46,852 nucleotides of DNA from positions 1 to 46,852 of the forward strand of contig NHJO01000005.1 of NCBI GenBank assembly GCA_002169695.1, in the 5' to 3' direction. Both the position numbers and the translations under genes were made by a program. The notes under the pieces were generated by a model. That model was not told the DNA's origin, searched no databases, and saw nothing but the letters and a program-made list of their open reading frames with translations. Origin of the DNA: a bacterium TMED217 (GTDB lineage: Bacteria > Fidelibacterota > Marinisomatia > Marinisomatales > UBA1611). Positions 11,186-20,058 of the stretch are shown here, in pieces; the stretch's first letter is position 1; each line of letters starts with the position of its first letter.

Positions 11186-12574
11186 GTGGATACGAATAAA
11201 AAAATAAAAACAAATTCTTCGTCTATTGATGATATAGATAAAAATATTCATGCAAATCAGACTTTGTATGATGAATTACACCAATCATTAGTTGATGAAG
11301 TTGTCGCTAGTGCCGAGGAGAGCCAAGAAGAGAGTCATAATAAAAAGCGGAGTAGTTCTTCGCAAAATACTTTTTTTACAAAATTAATTGATTATTATCA
11401 ATTGAACGAATTATTTCGTTATGCTTTATGGGGTCTAGCGGCAGTTTTTATTGCGACTACAATATTAACGATAATTGAATATCCTTTGTTTAGTAGTAGT
11501 GTGAAAGATGATGTTGGAGATGGATTTATGTTTGGTGGATCAGAACCAAACTGGGTAGATACATTTTTCCATACATTTTGGTGGGCAGTTGTGACATTTA
11601 CCACTGTTGGTTATGGAGATGTTAGTCCTGAAACTCATTTAGGAAAATTTTTAACTATAATTATAATGATTTTAAACTTGGGCATTGTAACAATGCTTAC
11701 AGGTGCTGTTTCTTCGGTATTAGTTGCAGCACGATTGAAAGGAGATGATACATTGGATGAGACTAAATATCATGGGCATTTAATTATTGCGGGATGGAAC
11801 TCAGCAGTACAGTCAGCATTAAGGTTGATAGAAGCAAATGAAGATTCAACTTCAGTTGTTATTCTTATTAATGAAACAGAAGCTGAAGTTGTAAAACGAG
11901 CTGTATCAGGGTTTGACCGTTTAGACATTACTCATTTATCAGAAAACTTTACGCAAGAAGGTGTATTGAAAAAGGCCTTTATTGAGGAATGTGGAACTTT
12001 TATGATTGTACCTGATGATTCTGGTCTCTTACCTAATGAGAAACCTGATGAAGATAAAACAGTATTAACTGCATTGACTGCAAAATCAATTTTAGAAGAT
12101 ATACAAGTTGTAGCTTATATACTTGATGAAGAATATATTTCTCATTTACATAGGGCAAATGTAAATGAAATTGTATTTCCAGATGATCATATTCCGCACA
12201 TGTTAGCAAAGCATGTGACAGACCCTGGTGTTCCTCAATTATTTGATGAATTAATAACGCAAGAAGAGCAGGATAAAGGAATTCAGGTTGTATCCATACC
12301 TAAAGGTTTAGTTGGTTTGACACATAATAAAGTGTCTGCCTATTATAAATTTAAACATAAGTGGTTACTTGTTGGTTATGCTATAAAAAAAGCAGGGTTC
12401 AGTCTAGAAGATCAAATGGGTGAGAGTGGTAGTCCAATAATTAGAGATATGATTAAAGAGCAGCTAGATAGTGCAGGTATAAAACTATCTAGTGATGAAC
12501 ATGTGATTGTTGAAATTAACCCAGACGATGAATATATAATTGATGGAAAACATAAAGCATTGGTGTTGAGGTAG
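11186..12574 (+). CDS. Two-TM potassium channel with RCK/TrkA-N domain
   Basis: This 462-residue protein has a charged 70-residue N-terminal tail, TM1 (about 78-98), a pore loop with selectivity filter TVGYGD (140-145), and TM2 (about 154-181). A cytosolic Rossmann RCK domain follows from about 197 (HGHLIIAGWNSAV), and then a TrkA-C-like region. This is the MthK-like ligand-gated K+ channel plan. The apparent start is GTG at 11186 without a clear Shine-Dalgarno, so the N-terminus is uncertain. The next gene begins five bases after the stop and encodes a cyclic-nucleotide-binding domain, which could be its gating partner. Confidence 0.92.
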   Translation: MDTNKKIKTNSSSIDDIDKNIHANQTLYDELHQSLVDEVVASAEESQEESHNKKRSSSSQNTFFTKLIDYYQLNELFRYALWGLAAVFIATTILTIIEYPLFSSSVKDDVGDGFMFGGSEPNWVDTFFHTFWWAVVTFTTVGYGDVSPETHLGKFLTIIIMILNLGIVTMLTGAVSSVLVAARLKGDDTLDETKYHGHLIIAGWNSAVQSALRLIEANEDSTSVVILINETEAEVVKRAVSGFDRLDITHLSENFTQEGVLKKAFIEECGTFMIVPDDSGLLPNEKPDEDKTVLTALTAKSILEDIQVVAYILDEEYISHLHRANVNEIVFPDDHIPHMLAKHVTDPGVPQLFDELITQEEQDKGIQVVSIPKGLVGLTHNKVSAYYKFKHKWLLVGYAIKKAGFSLEDQMGESGSPIIRDMIKEQLDSAGIKLSSDEHVIVEINPDDEYIIDGKHKALVLR

Positions 12575-12578
12575 ATAT

Positions 12579-13142
12579 ATGAGTGTAAGTGCAAAGCAGA
12601 TTCAAAAAATAAATTATTTTAGCAATGTACCAGAAAATTTTTGTTCTGAAATAGCAAAAGCTGTAGAACAAAAACAATGCTCTCCTGGGACAATTTTATT
12701 AAAAGAAGGTGAGACAGGAGACACAATGTTACTTATTTTTAAGGGGCAAGTAGAAGTATCGAAAAATATGATGGTTAAAACTTCTAGTGGCTTTACAATG
12801 TCAACTAAATCAATTATTAGATTAGAAACTACTGATCCGGCTCCGTCAACTTCTCCAATATCTGAACCTACAGTATCTATTGTTAAGGCTCCTGCTTTTG
12901 GAATTGGTGAGTTTTCACTCGTTCTTGATGATGCAAAAAGGACATCGCATGTTACTGCCATGACAGAGATTGATTATGGAATATTAAGCTTAGAGGATTT
13001 TTCAAAAATTGTTGATGAAAACCCATCTATTGGTGGGCCCGTTTATTTTGAGGTTGCTAAATCAGCTGTTAATAATCTTGCAACAGCTACGCAAGATATT
13101 TCTAATCTTACTCAAGCTTTCTTTTTTGCTTTGACTAGATAA
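12579..13142 (+). CDS. Stand-alone cyclic-nucleotide-binding domain protein
   Basis: This 187-residue protein has a CRP/CNG-type cNMP-binding fold from about residue 12. The N-terminal ILLKEGETGDTMLLIFKGQVEV is typical. A Pro/Ser/Thr-rich insertion (about 75-105) interrupts the barrel. The phosphate-binding cassette is FGIGEFSLVLDDAKRT, with the Arg that usually binds the cyclic phosphate. No helix-turn-helix follows, so it is not a CRP-type activator. A short C-terminal helix ends the protein. It lies four bases behind the K+ channel gene, suggesting a separate regulatory subunit. Its TAA directly abuts the stop of the converging gene. Confidence 0.85.
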   Translation: MSVSAKQIQKINYFSNVPENFCSEIAKAVEQKQCSPGTILLKEGETGDTMLLIFKGQVEVSKNMMVKTSSGFTMSTKSIIRLETTDPAPSTSPISEPTVSIVKAPAFGIGEFSLVLDDAKRTSHVTAMTEIDYGILSLEDFSKIVDENPSIGGPVYFEVAKSAVNNLATATQDISNLTQAFFFALTR

Positions 13143-14945
13143 TTAATTTATAAAGAATGTTTTTCTACGAGTATTAATTTTTACTTCTAATTCATTTATT
13201 TTTGTTTTTTCATCGGCAGTTTGATCTTTTTTAGATTTTAATTTATCTAATTCTAATCTTAAGAATTGTACATCTCGGTCAAGTTTTGCTAATCGGTTTT
13301 TCATTTGAGATGACAATATTTTTTTAAAATCATCTATTTTATCACTGTCAGGAGAATAATAAATATTTGTATTCCCACGATCTGTATCTTCCCAAAATGT
13401 TGGTCCACTAAATTTTATTCTATTGTATAAGCCTTCCATTAGATTAAGATAAGTTTGATTATCAAAATATGCTAAATCATCTAGAACGTCAGAAACAATA
13501 GTTTCAGCAAAATCAGTATTGTTGATTTTAATATAATGCAATGCTAATCCAATTTGTAAAACGCGGACGCCATTATTTACACTTTGATCTAGATTATCTT
13601 TTGGGTAATCAGGCGGATTATCAAGTTGTAATATTTCTTTTAATAAATGCTCTTGGAGCTCATTATCCCAATCATTTTCTGAAATTAAAATAGATATTTT
13701 TTTTAATTCTGTTGTTAGAACATCCACTATAAAATACAAAGAAGGGTTGTTTGCTGCTTGTTTATAGATTTCATTACTATAAAACTTAAAATAAAAATAA
13801 CCCTGCTTTAGTAAATCTCTTTTATTATTGTCTACATACCCTTTTAATAAAGCTGAATAATGAAAGGCTAGATTATATAAATTTCTAGGCTCATTATTTC
13901 TTACTGCGTGTTTGATTGCAAATCTCATAAAAGTATTAAATCTAATATTGATATCGGTAATTAGACTTTCTTGCTTGAGTTCCAGTGCTAAGAGTCCAAT
14001 AGATGAAATTTCACTAGCAATTAATGAAGCTAGTTCATATTCTCCATTTTCCATTTTTCTTATATATGCATTGCCCATCATTTTAAATGATTTTACTTCA
14101 TAAAAAGTTTTTCTTTCTTCAAGATCTTTATATTGATGTTCTACATATGTTCTGAATGTCGGGTTATTACGAATTGTATTAGTCGCTGAAAAAAAGGTGG
14201 GGTCATAATATTCTTTATTTTTCATATAAGATCTAACAGTATCTCCAACTCTACGGATAATTTCTGTTTGGGCTTCTTTAAATGAGATGTATTCTAATAA
14301 ATCATCAAATTGATCAATGGTTGACATAAGCTGATATTGATAATGTTCTATAACTTTATTGTCTCTCATTGATATATGAATGGATTTATTTTTTAATCTA
14401 TTTATATCATCAATATTAAGTGAATATAGTTTCTTAATTACATTGTCTGTTTTTGAGTATAAAAGTATATAAAATATATAAGGAAGTGATAGCATTGATG
14501 ATACTGGTAGATAAATATAAGTATTAAGAATAACACTAGATAATCTCTCCATTGGTCCAAAGTAGTACATTATTATTGTTGCGTGGATTGAGGCAAGGAT
14601 TAAAAACCAAATGAAAAGAAGGCTAACCCAATCTTTTACAAATAGGTCCATAAGCTTAGGTGTAGACTCAGCAGCGATTGCTATGACTATTATAAGTGTT
14701 CCCAACACAGTTGCAAGAACACCACCCCAGATCTCTGGCGCAAAAGTTAAGTCTACAGCACCATGAGTTTCTTCTCCTAGTCCAAATAAATATTCAATTT
14801 GTAGAATTATTTCTGGATAAAAATAATGAAAAAGAATATCAGTGCAAAGGACACCAAAAAACACAATCAGTAAAGATGCAAATGATCTGTTTTTGTTAAT
14901 AATATTTAAAATGCTTGCAAAAAAAATAGTTAATTGATTGTTCAT
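13143..14945 (-). CDS. Large four-TM membrane protein of unknown function
   Basis: This 600-residue protein is not recognised. Four membrane helices are visible at about 22-44, 69-94, 106-130 and 138-163. A roughly 400-residue, mostly helical soluble region follows, ending in a charged coiled coil at about 555-595 (KLDRDVQFLRLELDKLKSKK). The layout is somewhat like DUF2254-type membrane proteins, but no diagnostic motif supports that. It converges with the K+ channel and cNMP-binding pair, with the two stop codons touching (13142/13143). The 263-base gap beyond its start must hold its promoter and that of the TerB-like gene. Confidence 0.75.
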   Translation of the reverse strand: MNNQLTIFFASILNIINKNRSFASLLIVFFGVLCTDILFHYFYPEIILQIEYLFGLGEETHGAVDLTFAPEIWGGVLATVLGTLIIVIAIAAESTPKLMDLFVKDWVSLLFIWFLILASIHATIIMYYFGPMERLSSVILNTYIYLPVSSMLSLPYIFYILLYSKTDNVIKKLYSLNIDDINRLKNKSIHISMRDNKVIEHYQYQLMSTIDQFDDLLEYISFKEAQTEIIRRVGDTVRSYMKNKEYYDPTFFSATNTIRNNPTFRTYVEHQYKDLEERKTFYEVKSFKMMGNAYIRKMENGEYELASLIASEISSIGLLALELKQESLITDINIRFNTFMRFAIKHAVRNNEPRNLYNLAFHYSALLKGYVDNNKRDLLKQGYFYFKFYSNEIYKQAANNPSLYFIVDVLTTELKKISILISENDWDNELQEHLLKEILQLDNPPDYPKDNLDQSVNNGVRVLQIGLALHYIKINNTDFAETIVSDVLDDLAYFDNQTYLNLMEGLYNRIKFSGPTFWEDTDRGNTNIYYSPDSDKIDDFKKILSSQMKNRLAKLDRDVQFLRLELDKLKSKKDQTADEKTKINELEVKINTRRKTFFIN

Positions 14946-15661: not shown

Positions 15662-15698
15662 AATAATGCCCGATATTAATTATCGGGCATTATTTTAA
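15662..15698 (+). terminator. Perfect 14-bp hairpin terminator
   Basis: Bases 15662-15675 (AATAATGCCCGATA) pair perfectly with 15681-15694 across a five-base TTAAT loop, and the stem is followed by TTTTA. It lies 22 bases after the stop of the TerB-like gene, so it is a Rho-independent terminator for that gene. A small Arg-rich ORF starts 22 bases beyond the stem. Confidence 0.88.
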
Positions 15699-15878: not shown

Positions 15879-16565
15879 TTAGCAGTAAACTCTTTCAATA
15901 CCTGATAAAAAATTATTTAAAGAAGATAAAGCTAAATCTATTGCATCTAAGGCTTCTTCTTTTTTGATTTTAGTATCACATACCTGTCCTAATAGTTCTT
16001 TAATGACTTGCCTATGAATGATATCAGCAGACTGGTGTACCTCAAAAAACTTTAAAGTTTCATCTCCTTTTTTTGCGCCATAATATTTTTTCAGACCATC
16101 AATTTTATTTTCTGCGATTTCAGGAACCATTGACTCATAGCAATATAGAGCACTGAATCCCATATGAAATCTTTCATCTTTAGATAATTTCATAAAATTA
16201 CTTACAAGATTTTTAGTTTCTTCTATTGCGGTTGTATTTTTAACATCGGATCGATTTTTACCCATGCCTTCTGCAAACCGCATCCATAATTCAGGATGAT
16301 TTTCCTCTCCACGCTCTTCATCGATAAGATTTTCAAGAATTTCTTGTCTTATAGATATATTATCGCAATTTGAATGAATTGAAGATAAATATCTAGGAAA
16401 AGCTGAAACATGTTTAAAATATTGAGCGGCATATTCTTGAATTACTGTTCTATTCAATTCACCAGCATTCCAAGCTTTGTAGAAAGAGTGGTTCAACAGA
16501 TGATGCTTTTCAATTTTTTCTTCAACAATATTTAAAAACTCATTTTTGTTCATATTATACTCCAA
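15879..16565 (-). CDS. CADD-family self-sacrificing diiron oxygenase (probable pABA synthase)
   Basis: This 228-residue heme-oxygenase-fold protein matches chlamydial CADD (CT610), which makes p-aminobenzoate for folate from one of its own tyrosines. Visible counterparts of the CADD residues are Tyr29 in HSFYKAW (the sacrificed Tyr27), Lys154 in AENKIDGL (Lys152), and metal ligands Glu83, His90, Glu144, His177, Asp181 and His184. Spacing agrees throughout (HxxxDxxH in HQSADIIH). A second possible start, MNKNEF, lies four codons in. The gene is 16 bases downstream of the PAS-UbiA gene on the same strand, so the two are probably cotranscribed. PqqC/TenA relatives are less likely given the residue match. 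Confidence 0.88.
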   Translation of the reverse strand: MEYNMNKNEFLNIVEEKIEKHHLLNHSFYKAWNAGELNRTVIQEYAAQYFKHVSAFPRYLSSIHSNCDNISIRQEILENLIDEERGEENHPELWMRFAEGMGKNRSDVKNTTAIEETKNLVSNFMKLSKDERFHMGFSALYCYESMVPEIAENKIDGLKKYYGAKKGDETLKFFEVHQSADIIHRQVIKELLGQVCDTKIKKEEALDAIDLALSSLNNFLSGIERVYC

Positions 16566-16581
16566 AGTTAGATGAATTTAT

Positions 16582-17871
16582 TTATCCTAGCCATATTCCG
16601 GCACAGAAAAATAGGCCCGTTAAGAAATGTAATCCAATAGTTCCTGCGTTTGCAGGCTGTAATAATCTATTATCATAGTGTTTGTATAGTGTTTTTATTG
16701 TAAATACACTGTATATCGAAGTAATTAAAGATATTAAAGACAATGTTGGAAATGTTACTGGGTTCGTCCAAACTAAAGCAATTATACTTATGAAAGCGCC
16801 AATAATGAGAGCAACATATCCTATCCTAGCTTTTTCTGGTCCAAAAACGACGACCAGATTATTTTTTCCCGTAGCTTTGTCACCGTCATGATCAGGAAAT
16901 TGATTAACAAATACTATTGCAGCTACTAAGAAGCCGATTGGAATACCTGCTAATATAGCGTCATTTAAATGAGCTAGAGCCTCTGGATTTTCACTACATT
17001 GTACTAAAAAGCTACCTACAACCATTAATGATCCGAAATTTAGTCCGATTAAAAGCTCTCCTAGACCTTTTCTGGAAGCAAAACGAAATGGTGGAGCAGT
17101 ATAAAATAAGCCTGATAAGAATCCAATTATCCCTAGATAAAGAATGTTGATTCCACCTTTATAAATTAATGGTATACCTACAATAGCGCTGAGTGTAAAT
17201 GTTACAATGGCGGTATTTAACATTCCCTCAGGTGTAATAAGACCCATTTGGATGCTTCGACTTCCTCCAGAAAAAGGAACCATATAATTATAATTTGCTT
17301 CATCAGTTCCGCTAGTATGATCATAATAATCATTAGATGTATTAGTTCCTATGTGTAAGAAGAAACCTGCGAGCATTGTTAAAGTAAAATAAAACCAATC
17401 GATAGGTACAAATTTACTTGCAACAGCTGCTCCTAAAAGAATTGGAACGATTGTCGCTGTTAAAAAAGGAAGTCTCATGATTACCATCCAGCTAAATAAT
17501 TTAGTTGTAAAACTAATTTTTGGGCGAACCTCATCTGGGGTTTTATCTTTTAGTGGTGAAGTAACGCCACAATAGCCTATGTGATTACCTTCTTTGTCTT
17601 TTGTTGGTGTGATTTTAATCTTGCAGGGCATTTCATGGCCATCTTTATGAAGAAAGACCGTTTCACCTTCCCACTTACCTTTTTCTACAGATTCTGCTAA
17701 CCAATTAACTACATGGCCAAGTACTATTTGACCAGAACTAAAATCACTTACTCTACTTTTACCAATAATTTCATTTTCGGTGTATCCAAATAATTGTTGT
17801 GCTCCTTCGCTAAAGGTTTCGATTTTTCCATCAAGGTCACATGTTATTACACTTTTTAAATTTTCATTCAT
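16582..17871 (-). CDS. PAS domain fused to UbiA/MenA-type prenyltransferase
   Basis: This is a 429-residue fusion. Residues about 5-105 form a PAS domain (GKIETFSEGAQQLFGYTENE, then FLHKDGHEMPCKIKITPTKD). Residues about 125-429 form an eight- to nine-TM UbiA prenyltransferase. Its two Asp-rich motifs are intact: NDYYDHTSGTD (180-190) and NQFPDHDGDKATGKNNLVV (323-341). The second motif resembles MenA-type enzymes that prenylate dihydroxynaphthoate, so a menaquinone role is likely. Normal MenA is about 300 residues and lacks a PAS domain. One continuous frame covers both parts, so this is not an assembly of two genes. It lies just upstream of the CADD-like gene and is divergent from mtaB. Confidence 0.88.
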   Translation of the reverse strand: MNENLKSVITCDLDGKIETFSEGAQQLFGYTENEIIGKSRVSDFSSGQIVLGHVVNWLAESVEKGKWEGETVFLHKDGHEMPCKIKITPTKDKEGNHIGYCGVTSPLKDKTPDEVRPKISFTTKLFSWMVIMRLPFLTATIVPILLGAAVASKFVPIDWFYFTLTMLAGFFLHIGTNTSNDYYDHTSGTDEANYNYMVPFSGGSRSIQMGLITPEGMLNTAIVTFTLSAIVGIPLIYKGGINILYLGIIGFLSGLFYTAPPFRFASRKGLGELLIGLNFGSLMVVGSFLVQCSENPEALAHLNDAILAGIPIGFLVAAIVFVNQFPDHDGDKATGKNNLVVVFGPEKARIGYVALIIGAFISIIALVWTNPVTFPTLSLISLITSIYSVFTIKTLYKHYDNRLLQPANAGTIGLHFLTGLFFCAGIWLG

Positions 17872-17966
17872 ACCTACATAAATCCTTTACTATTAAAAAT
17901 AATAAGCTTATAAATTTAGGTATCAATATTTTCTTAAAACGAAAGATATTTTAAAAAAATTAAAAC

Positions 17967-19274
17967 ATGGGAACACCTGCAAAAAAGATAGCTTTTCATA
18001 CATTAGGCTGCAAGTTAAACTTCTCTGAAACGTCAACTTTAGCAAGAGATTCTTTGAAATTTGGTTATGAGAATGTTAATTCTAAAGACTTTGCTGATAT
18101 TTATGTTTTTAACACTTGTTCTGTAACGGAAAATGCAAATAAGGAGACTCGTAAACTTGTTAGAAGAAGTAAGAGATTAAATCCAAATGCTTTTATTGCA
18201 TTAATCGGTTGTTATGCCCAATTAAAACCTAAAGAATTAATCGAACTTGAGGATGTTAATTTGGTTTTAGGAGCAACTGATAAATTTGATCTTCTAAAGC
18301 ATTTAGATGAAATTAATATTTTAGGTAATAAAAAATTATTGCTCAATGAAAACATAAAAAACGCAAAAATCTTTAATCCTTCCTATTCAAATAATGATCG
18401 AACTAGAGCATTTTTAAAAGTGCAAGATGGCTGTGACTATTATTGTACTTTTTGTACAATTCCTTTAGCTAGGGGTAAAAGCAGAAGCTCTTCAATAAAA
18501 AAAACTATTAAACTAGTAAGAGATATATCAAAAACTAGCACGAAAGAAATTGTACTCACAGGAGTAAATATTGGCGATTTTGGAGTAGGGAATGATGAAA
18601 CTTTTTATGATTTAATTAAACAAATAGATTTAATAAAAGATATTGATAGAGTTAGAATTTCATCTATTGAACCGAATCTTCTTTCTGATGATATAATTGA
18701 ATTTTGTTTTCATTCAAAAAAATTCATGCCACATTTCCATATACCTTTACAATCAGGTTCAAACAAGATTTTAAAATCTATGAGAAGGAGGTATACAGTA
18801 GATGATTTCTCCAATCTAATAAATAAAATTAAAACTTTAAATGCTGATGCATGTATAGGTGTAGATGTAATTGTTGGTTATCCTTCAGAATCTGAAGAAG
18901 ATTTTCTTAAAACATACGAATTTTTGAAAAATCAAGATGTATCATATTTACATGTTTTTACTTATTCTGAAAGAGAAAACACCAAAGCAATAGAAATAAA
19001 ACCTTCTATTTCTGTTGATGAGAGGTCTAAAAGATCAAAACTGCTACATGAGCTTTCAGATCAAAAAAGAGCAAATTTTTACAATAATTCTTTAGGAAAA
19101 ATTAAACCTGTTCTTGTAGAAAAGAGTAAAAATGGCATGTTATTTGGCTATACAGATAATTACATTAAAACAAGAGTGAGAGGACATGTTTCTTTGGGGA
19201 ATACAATACAAAATGTACATATTTTAGATATTAAACCAGATTATGTGGAAAGTGAGATTGTAGCAACTAGTTAG
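17967..19274 (+). CDS. mtaB: tRNA t6A37 methylthiotransferase MtaB
   Basis: This 435-residue radical-SAM enzyme converts t6A to ms2t6A at position 37 of ANN-decoding tRNAs. The N-terminal UPF0004 domain has its three cluster cysteines in TLGCKLN (Cys15), NTCSVTENAN and IGCYAQ. The radical-SAM motif CxxxCxxC is in DGCDYYCTFC. A TRAM-like RNA-binding segment closes the protein (VRGHVSLGN). The HTLGCKLNFSE start is characteristic of MtaB rather than MiaB or RimO. The 95-base gap to the divergent PAS-UbiA gene must hold both promoters. The 3' end overlaps the converging DUF3050 gene by eight bases. Confidence 0.94.
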   Translation: MGTPAKKIAFHTLGCKLNFSETSTLARDSLKFGYENVNSKDFADIYVFNTCSVTENANKETRKLVRRSKRLNPNAFIALIGCYAQLKPKELIELEDVNLVLGATDKFDLLKHLDEINILGNKKLLLNENIKNAKIFNPSYSNNDRTRAFLKVQDGCDYYCTFCTIPLARGKSRSSSIKKTIKLVRDISKTSTKEIVLTGVNIGDFGVGNDETFYDLIKQIDLIKDIDRVRISSIEPNLLSDDIIEFCFHSKKFMPHFHIPLQSGSNKILKSMRRRYTVDDFSNLINKIKTLNADACIGVDVIVGYPSESEEDFLKTYEFLKNQDVSYLHVFTYSERENTKAIEIKPSISVDERSKRSKLLHELSDQKRANFYNNSLGKIKPVLVEKSKNGMLFGYTDNYIKTRVRGHVSLGNTIQNVHILDIKPDYVESEIVATS

Positions 19275-20058
19275 GTTTAGTTTTTTTTATTTCAGCTAAT
19301 ATTTGATCCCAAAATTTTATTCTTGATTTAATAATATTTCTTCCACAATCAATACTTTCTTTCCACTTTAATTCATCATCTCCGCAAATTTCTTTAATCA
19401 TTCTTAATGCTAATGGAGTATGTTCATCTTCATCTAAGCCAATATGTCTATCCAAATAGTAAATAAAAGATTTGAATTTTCCAGTAGAGTTATTATTTAG
19501 GTCTTGAACGATTTCTCGAAACATATTAGGAATTATTTCTTCTCTTCCTAATGTGAAAATTGTTGCTGTAAGGTGTGGGGCATTTAGGTCAATGTATTTA
19601 AAGGTATCAAGAACAAATTTTTTTGCAGCTTTTGGAGTATTACTTTTTTCAAGAGATGATAGTAAATCAGAGTTGTCAAGTTGGCCTAGAAAATTTTCTA
19701 TAATTTTGGTGTTTGCACCAGCTTCTTTCATCGCATAGTAATATATTTCGAAATGACTAAGATGTTGACCAAATCGATCGACATCAGATTCCTCAGCAAG
19801 AACTATTTCATTCAATAGTCTCGATAGAGTACCATTATTCTTGGGTCGCCAAGGTATTTGAACACATGTAAATTCTCTTTGGAGGGATTTTAAAACTGAC
19901 ATAAAGTCCCAGACAGCAAAAACATGATGCTCCATAAATATATGTAAATGCTTTTCTGTCCTTATTGATTTATATAAAGGATGTTTTTTTAATTCATCTC
20001 TCTCATTCTGAGTCTCATCAAGAATATTCAGGAGATTGTTTTTTAATAGTTTGAACAT
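19267..20058 (-). CDS. DUF3050 heme-oxygenase-like protein
   Basis: This 263-residue protein carries the DUF3050 signature: KHPLYKSI (25-32), then FMEHHVFAVWDFM (41-53), then QREFTCVQIPWRP (60-72). Candidate metal ligands are Glu89/Glu90, His102 (QHLSHFE), and the C-terminal DRHIGLDEDEHTPLA. The family adopts the helical heme-oxygenase/TenA-like fold, and some relatives are diiron enzymes. No activity is established to my knowledge. Its start lies two bases after the gcvP stop, so the two are probably cotranscribed. It is the second heme-oxygenase-fold gene within 4 kb. Confidence 0.82.
   Translation of the reverse strand: MFKLLKNNLLNILDETQNERDELKKHPLYKSIRTEKHLHIFMEHHVFAVWDFMSVLKSLQREFTCVQIPWRPKNNGTLSRLLNEIVLAEESDVDRFGQHLSHFEIYYYAMKEAGANTKIIENFLGQLDNSDLLSSLEKSNTPKAAKKFVLDTFKYIDLNAPHLTATIFTLGREEIIPNMFREIVQDLNNNSTGKFKSFIYYLDRHIGLDEDEHTPLALRMIKEICGDDELKWKESIDCGRNIIKSRIKFWDQILAEIKKTKPN

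Follow-up and report, generated by a model that had tools for sequence, protein, structure and literature searches.

A PAS domain and a UbiA prenyltransferase are certainly encoded as one fused protein, in a single reading frame, within the window, the whole 46,852-nucleotide stretch of DNA that was analysed. A UbiA prenyltransferase is usually a membrane enzyme with no added domain, and here one of them, with its catalytic motifs intact, has a conserved PAS domain at its N-terminus. The architecture is old and stable and has a single origin, because the stop-free fusion is widespread and all copies placed on a tree fall in one clade. The protein likely has a MenA-like role in quinone formation, and its presence in a genome nearly excludes that of the Men pathway, as marked by MenD. 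The features are:

16582..17871, minus strand: gene for the PAS-UbiA fusion (ATG at 17871, stop at 16582, 429 codons and 429 amino acids), with full-length homologues known
17563..17853, minus strand: PAS domain, residues 7-103 (Pfam PAS_9, E 5e-13; PAS fold by Foldseek)
17839..17841, minus strand: Cys11 in strand A-beta, found in 43 of 43 distinct PAS-UbiA proteins and aligned with a ligand-facing LOV position
17752..17754, minus strand: Arg40, found in 42 of 43 (one X), near the place of the LOV cysteine
17569..17571, minus strand: Cys101 in strand I-beta, found in 42 of 43, the other one being X (an unread residue)
16678..17451, minus strand: UbiA prenyltransferase domain, residues 141-398 (Pfam PF01040, E 5.8e-30; NCBIfam PRK06080.1-3, 152.7 bits)
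17320..17343, minus strand: first Asp-rich motif, N177xxNDYxD184 (N177-T-S-N-D-Y-Y-D184), with Asn and Asp invariant in alignments
16879..16905, minus strand: second Asp-rich motif, N323xxxDxxxD331 (N323-Q-F-P-D-H-D-G-D331), followed by TGK, with Asn and Asp invariant
17872..17966, no strand: divergent intergenic region of 95 bp between PAS-UbiA and mtaB, which would hold the PAS-UbiA promoter
15879..16553, minus strand: CADD-family gene (self-sacrificing pABA synthase family; TIGR04305, 267.6 bits against a cut-off of 200), with a likely ATG at 16553 preceded by GGAG

Translation of both strands shows many stops in the plus-strand frame at 16582-17871, and the coding strand is the minus strand. 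The sequence-only reading had described a single-frame fusion of a PAS domain, at about residues 5-105, to a complete UbiA enzyme with both Asp-rich motifs, and this description is borne out, with Pfam profiles for both domains above their cut-offs and both motifs intact. For the PAS assignment in particular, PAS_9 scores 49.6 bits over residues 7-100, the threshold being 27, and the PAS_3 and PAS profiles likewise exceed their cut-offs. Nor is the gene a local artefact of two split genes, as that reading had allowed, since relatives keep PAS and UbiA unsplit; the same stop-free, full-length frame recurs in most of them at 41-90% identity, which excludes chance, misassembly and frameshift. Promoter-like matches in the gap between PAS-UbiA and mtaB were no better than those in shuffled sequences.

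The fusion is found in 58 of 245 genomes of the phylum (Ca. Marinimicrobia/SAR406, Fidelibacterota), a count taken from MAGs and single-cell genomes, many of them incomplete, and including three (G118, G128 and G191) that contain the N-terminal part only and are probably cut at contig ends. The relatives that share the gene order and bear a name are likewise Ca. Marinimicrobia. The stop-free fused protein occurs in most genomes of the host genus and family, and also in families f5, f7, f8, f9, f14 and f20. Two loci of the Marinimicrobia type sit under other labels, L041 in a MAG assigned to Gammaproteobacteria, with 85% identity over the UbiA part, and L033 in one assigned to Chloroflexi, and these are probably mislabelled or mixed bins. 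A plasmid search returned plain MenA only and no fusion, and the PAS part, when searched against phages, had a single weak PAS-like match. A literature search found no paper on PAS-UbiA or a PAS-menaquinone prenyltransferase, and none on SAR406 quinone synthesis.

Every fused copy placed on the tree belongs to one clade (support 99/97), the sister of which (94/93) contains related enzymes of the same phylum that have either an N-terminal PNPOx-like domain (PF01243; weak in deep families) or no extra domain. The PNPOx-UbiA form was counted in 41 genomes as frames of at least 455 amino acids, part of the fetched ones being domain-scanned. This fusion of a PNPOx-like (flavin split-barrel) domain to UbiA, seen in many Marinimicrobia (L051-L059, L154-L161), is possibly undescribed too. 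The order UbiA-(UbiE)-carA in f5, f7 and f3 is common to PNPOx-UbiA (L054, L056, L058) and PAS-UbiA (L048, L162), and in f20 UbiE comes after both forms (L161, L164). Whilst this shared order hinted at a recent in-place swap of PNPOx for PAS, the tree shows one old PAS clade, and the order supports no more than common ancestry or a replacement of one form by the other at that locus.

The full-length AlphaFold model of the fusion is too poor for use (pLDDT 55). A model of the PAS part alone is of moderate confidence (pLDDT 77) and has PAS secondary structure. Its Foldseek matches are PAS structures, namely 3lyx, NifL, Aer, FixL and LOV (E 1e-6 to 4e-8). Around 30 positions of the domain are near-invariant even at 41% identity, including C11, R40, W57 and T104, with W57 invariant across the 43 distinct proteins. 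Judged by alignment, C11, R40 and T104 would line a ligand pocket, and the conserved pocket is compatible with ligand sensing; a cofactor may be bound there. The LOV cysteine motif NCRFLQ is absent. A disulfide between C11 and C101 was considered and dropped, because alignment with LOV structures turns C11 towards the pocket and C101 to the opposite face. The PAS fold is shared with 3lyx, with the FAD-binding NifL and Aer and with the heme-binding FixL, but unlike these sensors the domain is joined to a metabolic membrane enzyme and has no signalling output.

The UbiA half is MenA-like, and the earlier assignment to a UbiA/MenA type stands; membership of MenA itself is not supported. As in MenA (the DHNA polyprenyltransferase, TIGR00751/PRK06080), there is a UbiA fold with both Asp motifs, the best curated matches are PRK06080-type MenA models, and some relatives have UbiE or MenI as neighbours. 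In contrast to MenA, the protein has an N-terminal PAS, none of the NCBIfam models reaches its cut-off (89.2 bits against 102.15 for TIGR00751, the menA equivalog), its clade lies outside both the reference MenA and those of men operons, and nearly all its genomes are without the MenD and MenB that should accompany a MenA. The enzyme is taken to work like MenA but, because score, clade and pathway context all speak against it, is not filed as a member, and the acceptor could differ from DHNA, given the score below cut-off and the position outside the canonical clade. Nor is an assignment to MqnP of the futalosine route supported: the window protein matches no MqnP model and PF02621 (MqnA/D) is found in 0 of 105 genomes of the subfamily. 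The best solved UbiA by sequence is UBIAD1 (PDB 8djk; E 1.6e-10), which has the same membrane fold and belongs to the MenA-like branch, but is eukaryotic, lacks a PAS domain and is weakly similar. Closer to hand, PNPOx-UbiA (for example L056 and L161) has a related UbiA half, a small N-terminal ligand-type domain and the UbiE-carA surroundings in common with PAS-UbiA, and differs in having a flavin split-barrel-like domain in place of PAS and in keeping UbiE.

A clue to function comes from co-occurrence with quinone pathway genes, scored by MenD, MenB, MqnA/D and UbiE. MenD, present in 70 of the 245 genomes, overlaps with PAS-UbiA in only one of 58 (G191; Fisher 8e-9); within the host order it accompanies the fusion in 0/55 genomes as against 18/75 of the others (Fisher 3.6e-5), and for the whole MenA-like subfamily of 105 genomes the overlap is two (p 2e-18), all of these being tests that ignore the relatedness of genomes. 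The better argument is provided by pairs within genera, as PAS-UbiA and MenD switch inside g9, g18, g30 and g59 (G031 versus G014/G023/G032; G148 versus G039/G147; G130-G139 versus G058/G129/G136; G192 versus G193). MenB over cut-off was found in 0 of 28 PAS-UbiA genomes tested, true MenB occurring only in genomes without the fusion. MqnA/D is missing from all 61 relatives and is found in 8 of the 245 phylum genomes, none of which holds the subfamily. UbiE is present in 8/8 PNPOx and 13/13 MenD genomes as against 3/28 PAS genomes. The proposal that the fusion catalyses the membrane-committing step of known menaquinone synthesis is thus not supported: apart from one genome with MenD, those with the fusion have neither MenD nor true MenB nor MqnA/D, and most of them lack UbiE as well.

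A quinol is nevertheless needed by the host, as its draft genome (1.1 Mb, 64% complete) encodes a quinol-oxidising bc complex together with CtaB, CtaA and SCO genes. No second, plain menA was found in this 64% complete draft, the only other UbiA gene being CtaB, the heme O synthase, which lies between the CtaA and SCO genes and is thereby set aside as a menaquinone enzyme. PAS, PNPOx and MenD genomes all encode the same Rieske motif, CPCHGSGF, with Phe at the spot where high-potential Rieske proteins have Tyr. This identity suggests one quinone class in all three groups of genomes and argues against a benzoquinone.

The gene neighbourhoods of relatives provide some indication of where the acceptor may come from. 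A MenI-like DHNA-CoA thioesterase lies directly upstream of PAS-UbiA in four loci (G051, G117, G119 and L043) and has 49-59% identity to the MenI of classical men operons, although it scores under its own profile cut-off (127 against 185). UbiE is directly downstream of PAS-UbiA in G192, and between PAS-UbiA and carA in G110 (L162, 6802-7135) there is a remnant of UbiE that retains residues 3-68 and 187-247, with the SAM-binding middle deleted, and still matches the L054 and L056 enzymes at E 1e-18 to 1e-22. In family f13, G055 and G044 are without MenD and Mqn, contain UbiE and have a MenA-like UbiA, which in G055 passes the TIGR00751 cut-off (117.8), within an operon of TetR, NMT1-like binding protein, ABC ATPase, permease and TonB receptor (L055, 515-5343; L057, 3062-9456) that looks like a quinone-precursor salvage cassette of the import-and-prenylate kind. 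A FecI-FecR-TonB-receptor cluster adjoins MenI-PAS-UbiA in f8, with a homologue beside UbiE in G040 (f9). The f8 cluster (L167, 8443-13482; L220, 611-5719) comprises an ECF sigma factor, FecR, the TonB receptor and a secreted AhpC-TSA-like protein with a sorting tail. Together the MenI and importer or TonB neighbourhoods point towards a DHNA-like acid that is salvaged; the window itself has no importer linked to PAS-UbiA, and the UbiE neighbourhoods gave no pathway clue. Use of external DHNA by a bacterium with MenA only has been proposed in Lactiplantibacillus (PMC10746273). L. plantarum likewise keeps the late step and is missing ring synthesis, but the PAS-UbiA host belongs to a Gram-negative marine phylum. 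We know of no PAS fusion in MenA-only bacteria that salvage DHNA.

From these observations we infer the substrate, product, salvage and gating as follows. PAS-UbiA would be a MenA-like, membrane-embedded prenyltransferase with a PAS domain permanently attached, presumably facing the cytosol. Its most likely acceptor is DHNA or a close analogue, a dihydroxy-naphthalene with a carboxyl group, and addition of the polyprenyl tail to this would give these SAR406 lineages their pool quinone. Neither of the known routes, MenD/MenB and futalosine, would supply the acceptor, which is most likely salvaged from outside the cell, an undescribed route being the alternative. The end product is probably without ring methylation (demethylmenaquinone-like), because UbiE is missing from most PAS-UbiA genomes. 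A small redox-active or aromatic molecule is probably the ligand of the PAS domain, which plausibly adjusts prenyl transfer as a ligand or redox gate. Taken whole, this best reading, a pool-quinone prenyltransferase for which DHNA or a similar acid is obtained by salvage, with a non-methylated product and PAS as the gate, is held with about even confidence. The wider proposal, that the PAS- or PNPOx-fronted subfamily serves an undescribed naphthoquinone supply in Fidelibacterota, by a new ring route or by import-and-prenylate salvage, with the last step gated by the fused sensor, is more tentative and somewhat doubtful.

Several other explanations need to be weighed against this best reading. 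PAS may be structural, serving dimerisation, folding or membrane placement, and not a sensor. PAS domains often dimerise, and the subfamily does not always need PAS, as related enzymes have an unrelated PNPOx-like domain or none; set against this, the near-invariant positions of the domain suggest a ligand pocket over a scaffold, and the structural role is judged rather unlikely. Somewhat less likely still is that the enzyme belongs to a complete quinone pathway, as yet undescribed, with ring-making genes elsewhere and no salvage. To have all these lineages rely on salvage is a demanding assumption, and the subfamily spans deep families with genomes of 2-4 Mb that are likewise without MenD and Mqn, but across families no conserved unknown gene was found to travel with the enzyme, and the importer-linked MenA-like genes of G044 and G055 favour uptake.

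The remaining explanations alter the acceptor or the product. Prenylation of homogentisate, made by HPPD, to a methyl-benzoquinone would need no methyltransferase and would account for the missing UbiE as well as for the missing MenD and Mqn. Decarboxylation is a feature of homogentisate prenyltransferases as it is of those for DHNA, and HPPD is commoner in genomes with the fusion, at 23/28 against 16/33 (p 0.008). It is nonetheless an improbable explanation, as HPPD also occurs in 7/13 MenD genomes, was not found in G004 (92% complete), G021, G030 and G040, and lies in what by eye is a tyrosine-degradation operon (aminotransferase, HPPD, FAH-like and homogentisate-dioxygenase-like), which disposes of it as a dedicated partner; no homogentisate-prenyltransferase NCBIfam model is among the matches of the window protein at E 1e-3, and the Rieske motif equals that of MenD genomes. 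Slightly more improbable again is another prenylated lipid that is no respiratory quinone, for while the enzyme is outside the canonical MenA clade and no upstream quinone genes were found, its distribution is nearly complementary to that of MenD, it has UbiE and MenI neighbours, and the draft genome has a bc complex and no other quinone prenyltransferase. A module in which PAS-UbiA and CADD, perhaps with DUF3050, would prenylate a CADD product such as pABA is very improbable. In the window CADD starts 28 bp past the PAS-UbiA stop on the same strand, a gap that makes co-transcription probable, and CADD is somewhat enriched with the fusion (17/28 genomes against 6/33). The small module suggested from the sequence does not extend beyond this, because the two genes adjoin in genera g1 and g7 only, CADD was not found in 11/28 PAS-UbiA genomes and is present in six without the fusion; as a general arrangement it is rejected in favour of a lineage-specific neighbour with a sporadic distribution. 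Moreover, CADD-family enzymes make pABA (PMC11965152), and pABA serves folate.

Other genes of the window may be recorded alongside. The DUF3050 gene (19267-20058) overlaps mtaB by 8 bp at its end; its place between gcvP and mtaB is a feature of this genus that the other genera seen do not share. An ion channel with a TrkA-N domain is followed 4 bp later by a protein with a cNMP-binding domain (11186-13142), an arrangement kept in the genus. A 600-residue membrane protein (13143-14945) has no Pfam match and is 85-87% conserved in the genus and around 80% in G022. Between a TerB-like gene and CADD there is a strong 14-bp inverted repeat with T/A tails (15662-15694) that resembles a bidirectional terminator.

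Menaquinone synthesis is known to be controlled by feedback on MenD (PMC9835592). If the salvage-and-gate reading is true, a sensor fused to the membrane-committing enzyme would let the quinone pool be controlled directly, at the post-translational level. In an abundant ocean phylum, around 100 of 245 genomes are without the two known naphthoquinone routes, yet a MenA-like enzyme is kept, and for this reason both the identity and the origin of their quinone come into question. The source of the pool quinone in these SAR406 lineages is thereby raised, by the co-occurrence data, as a testable question.
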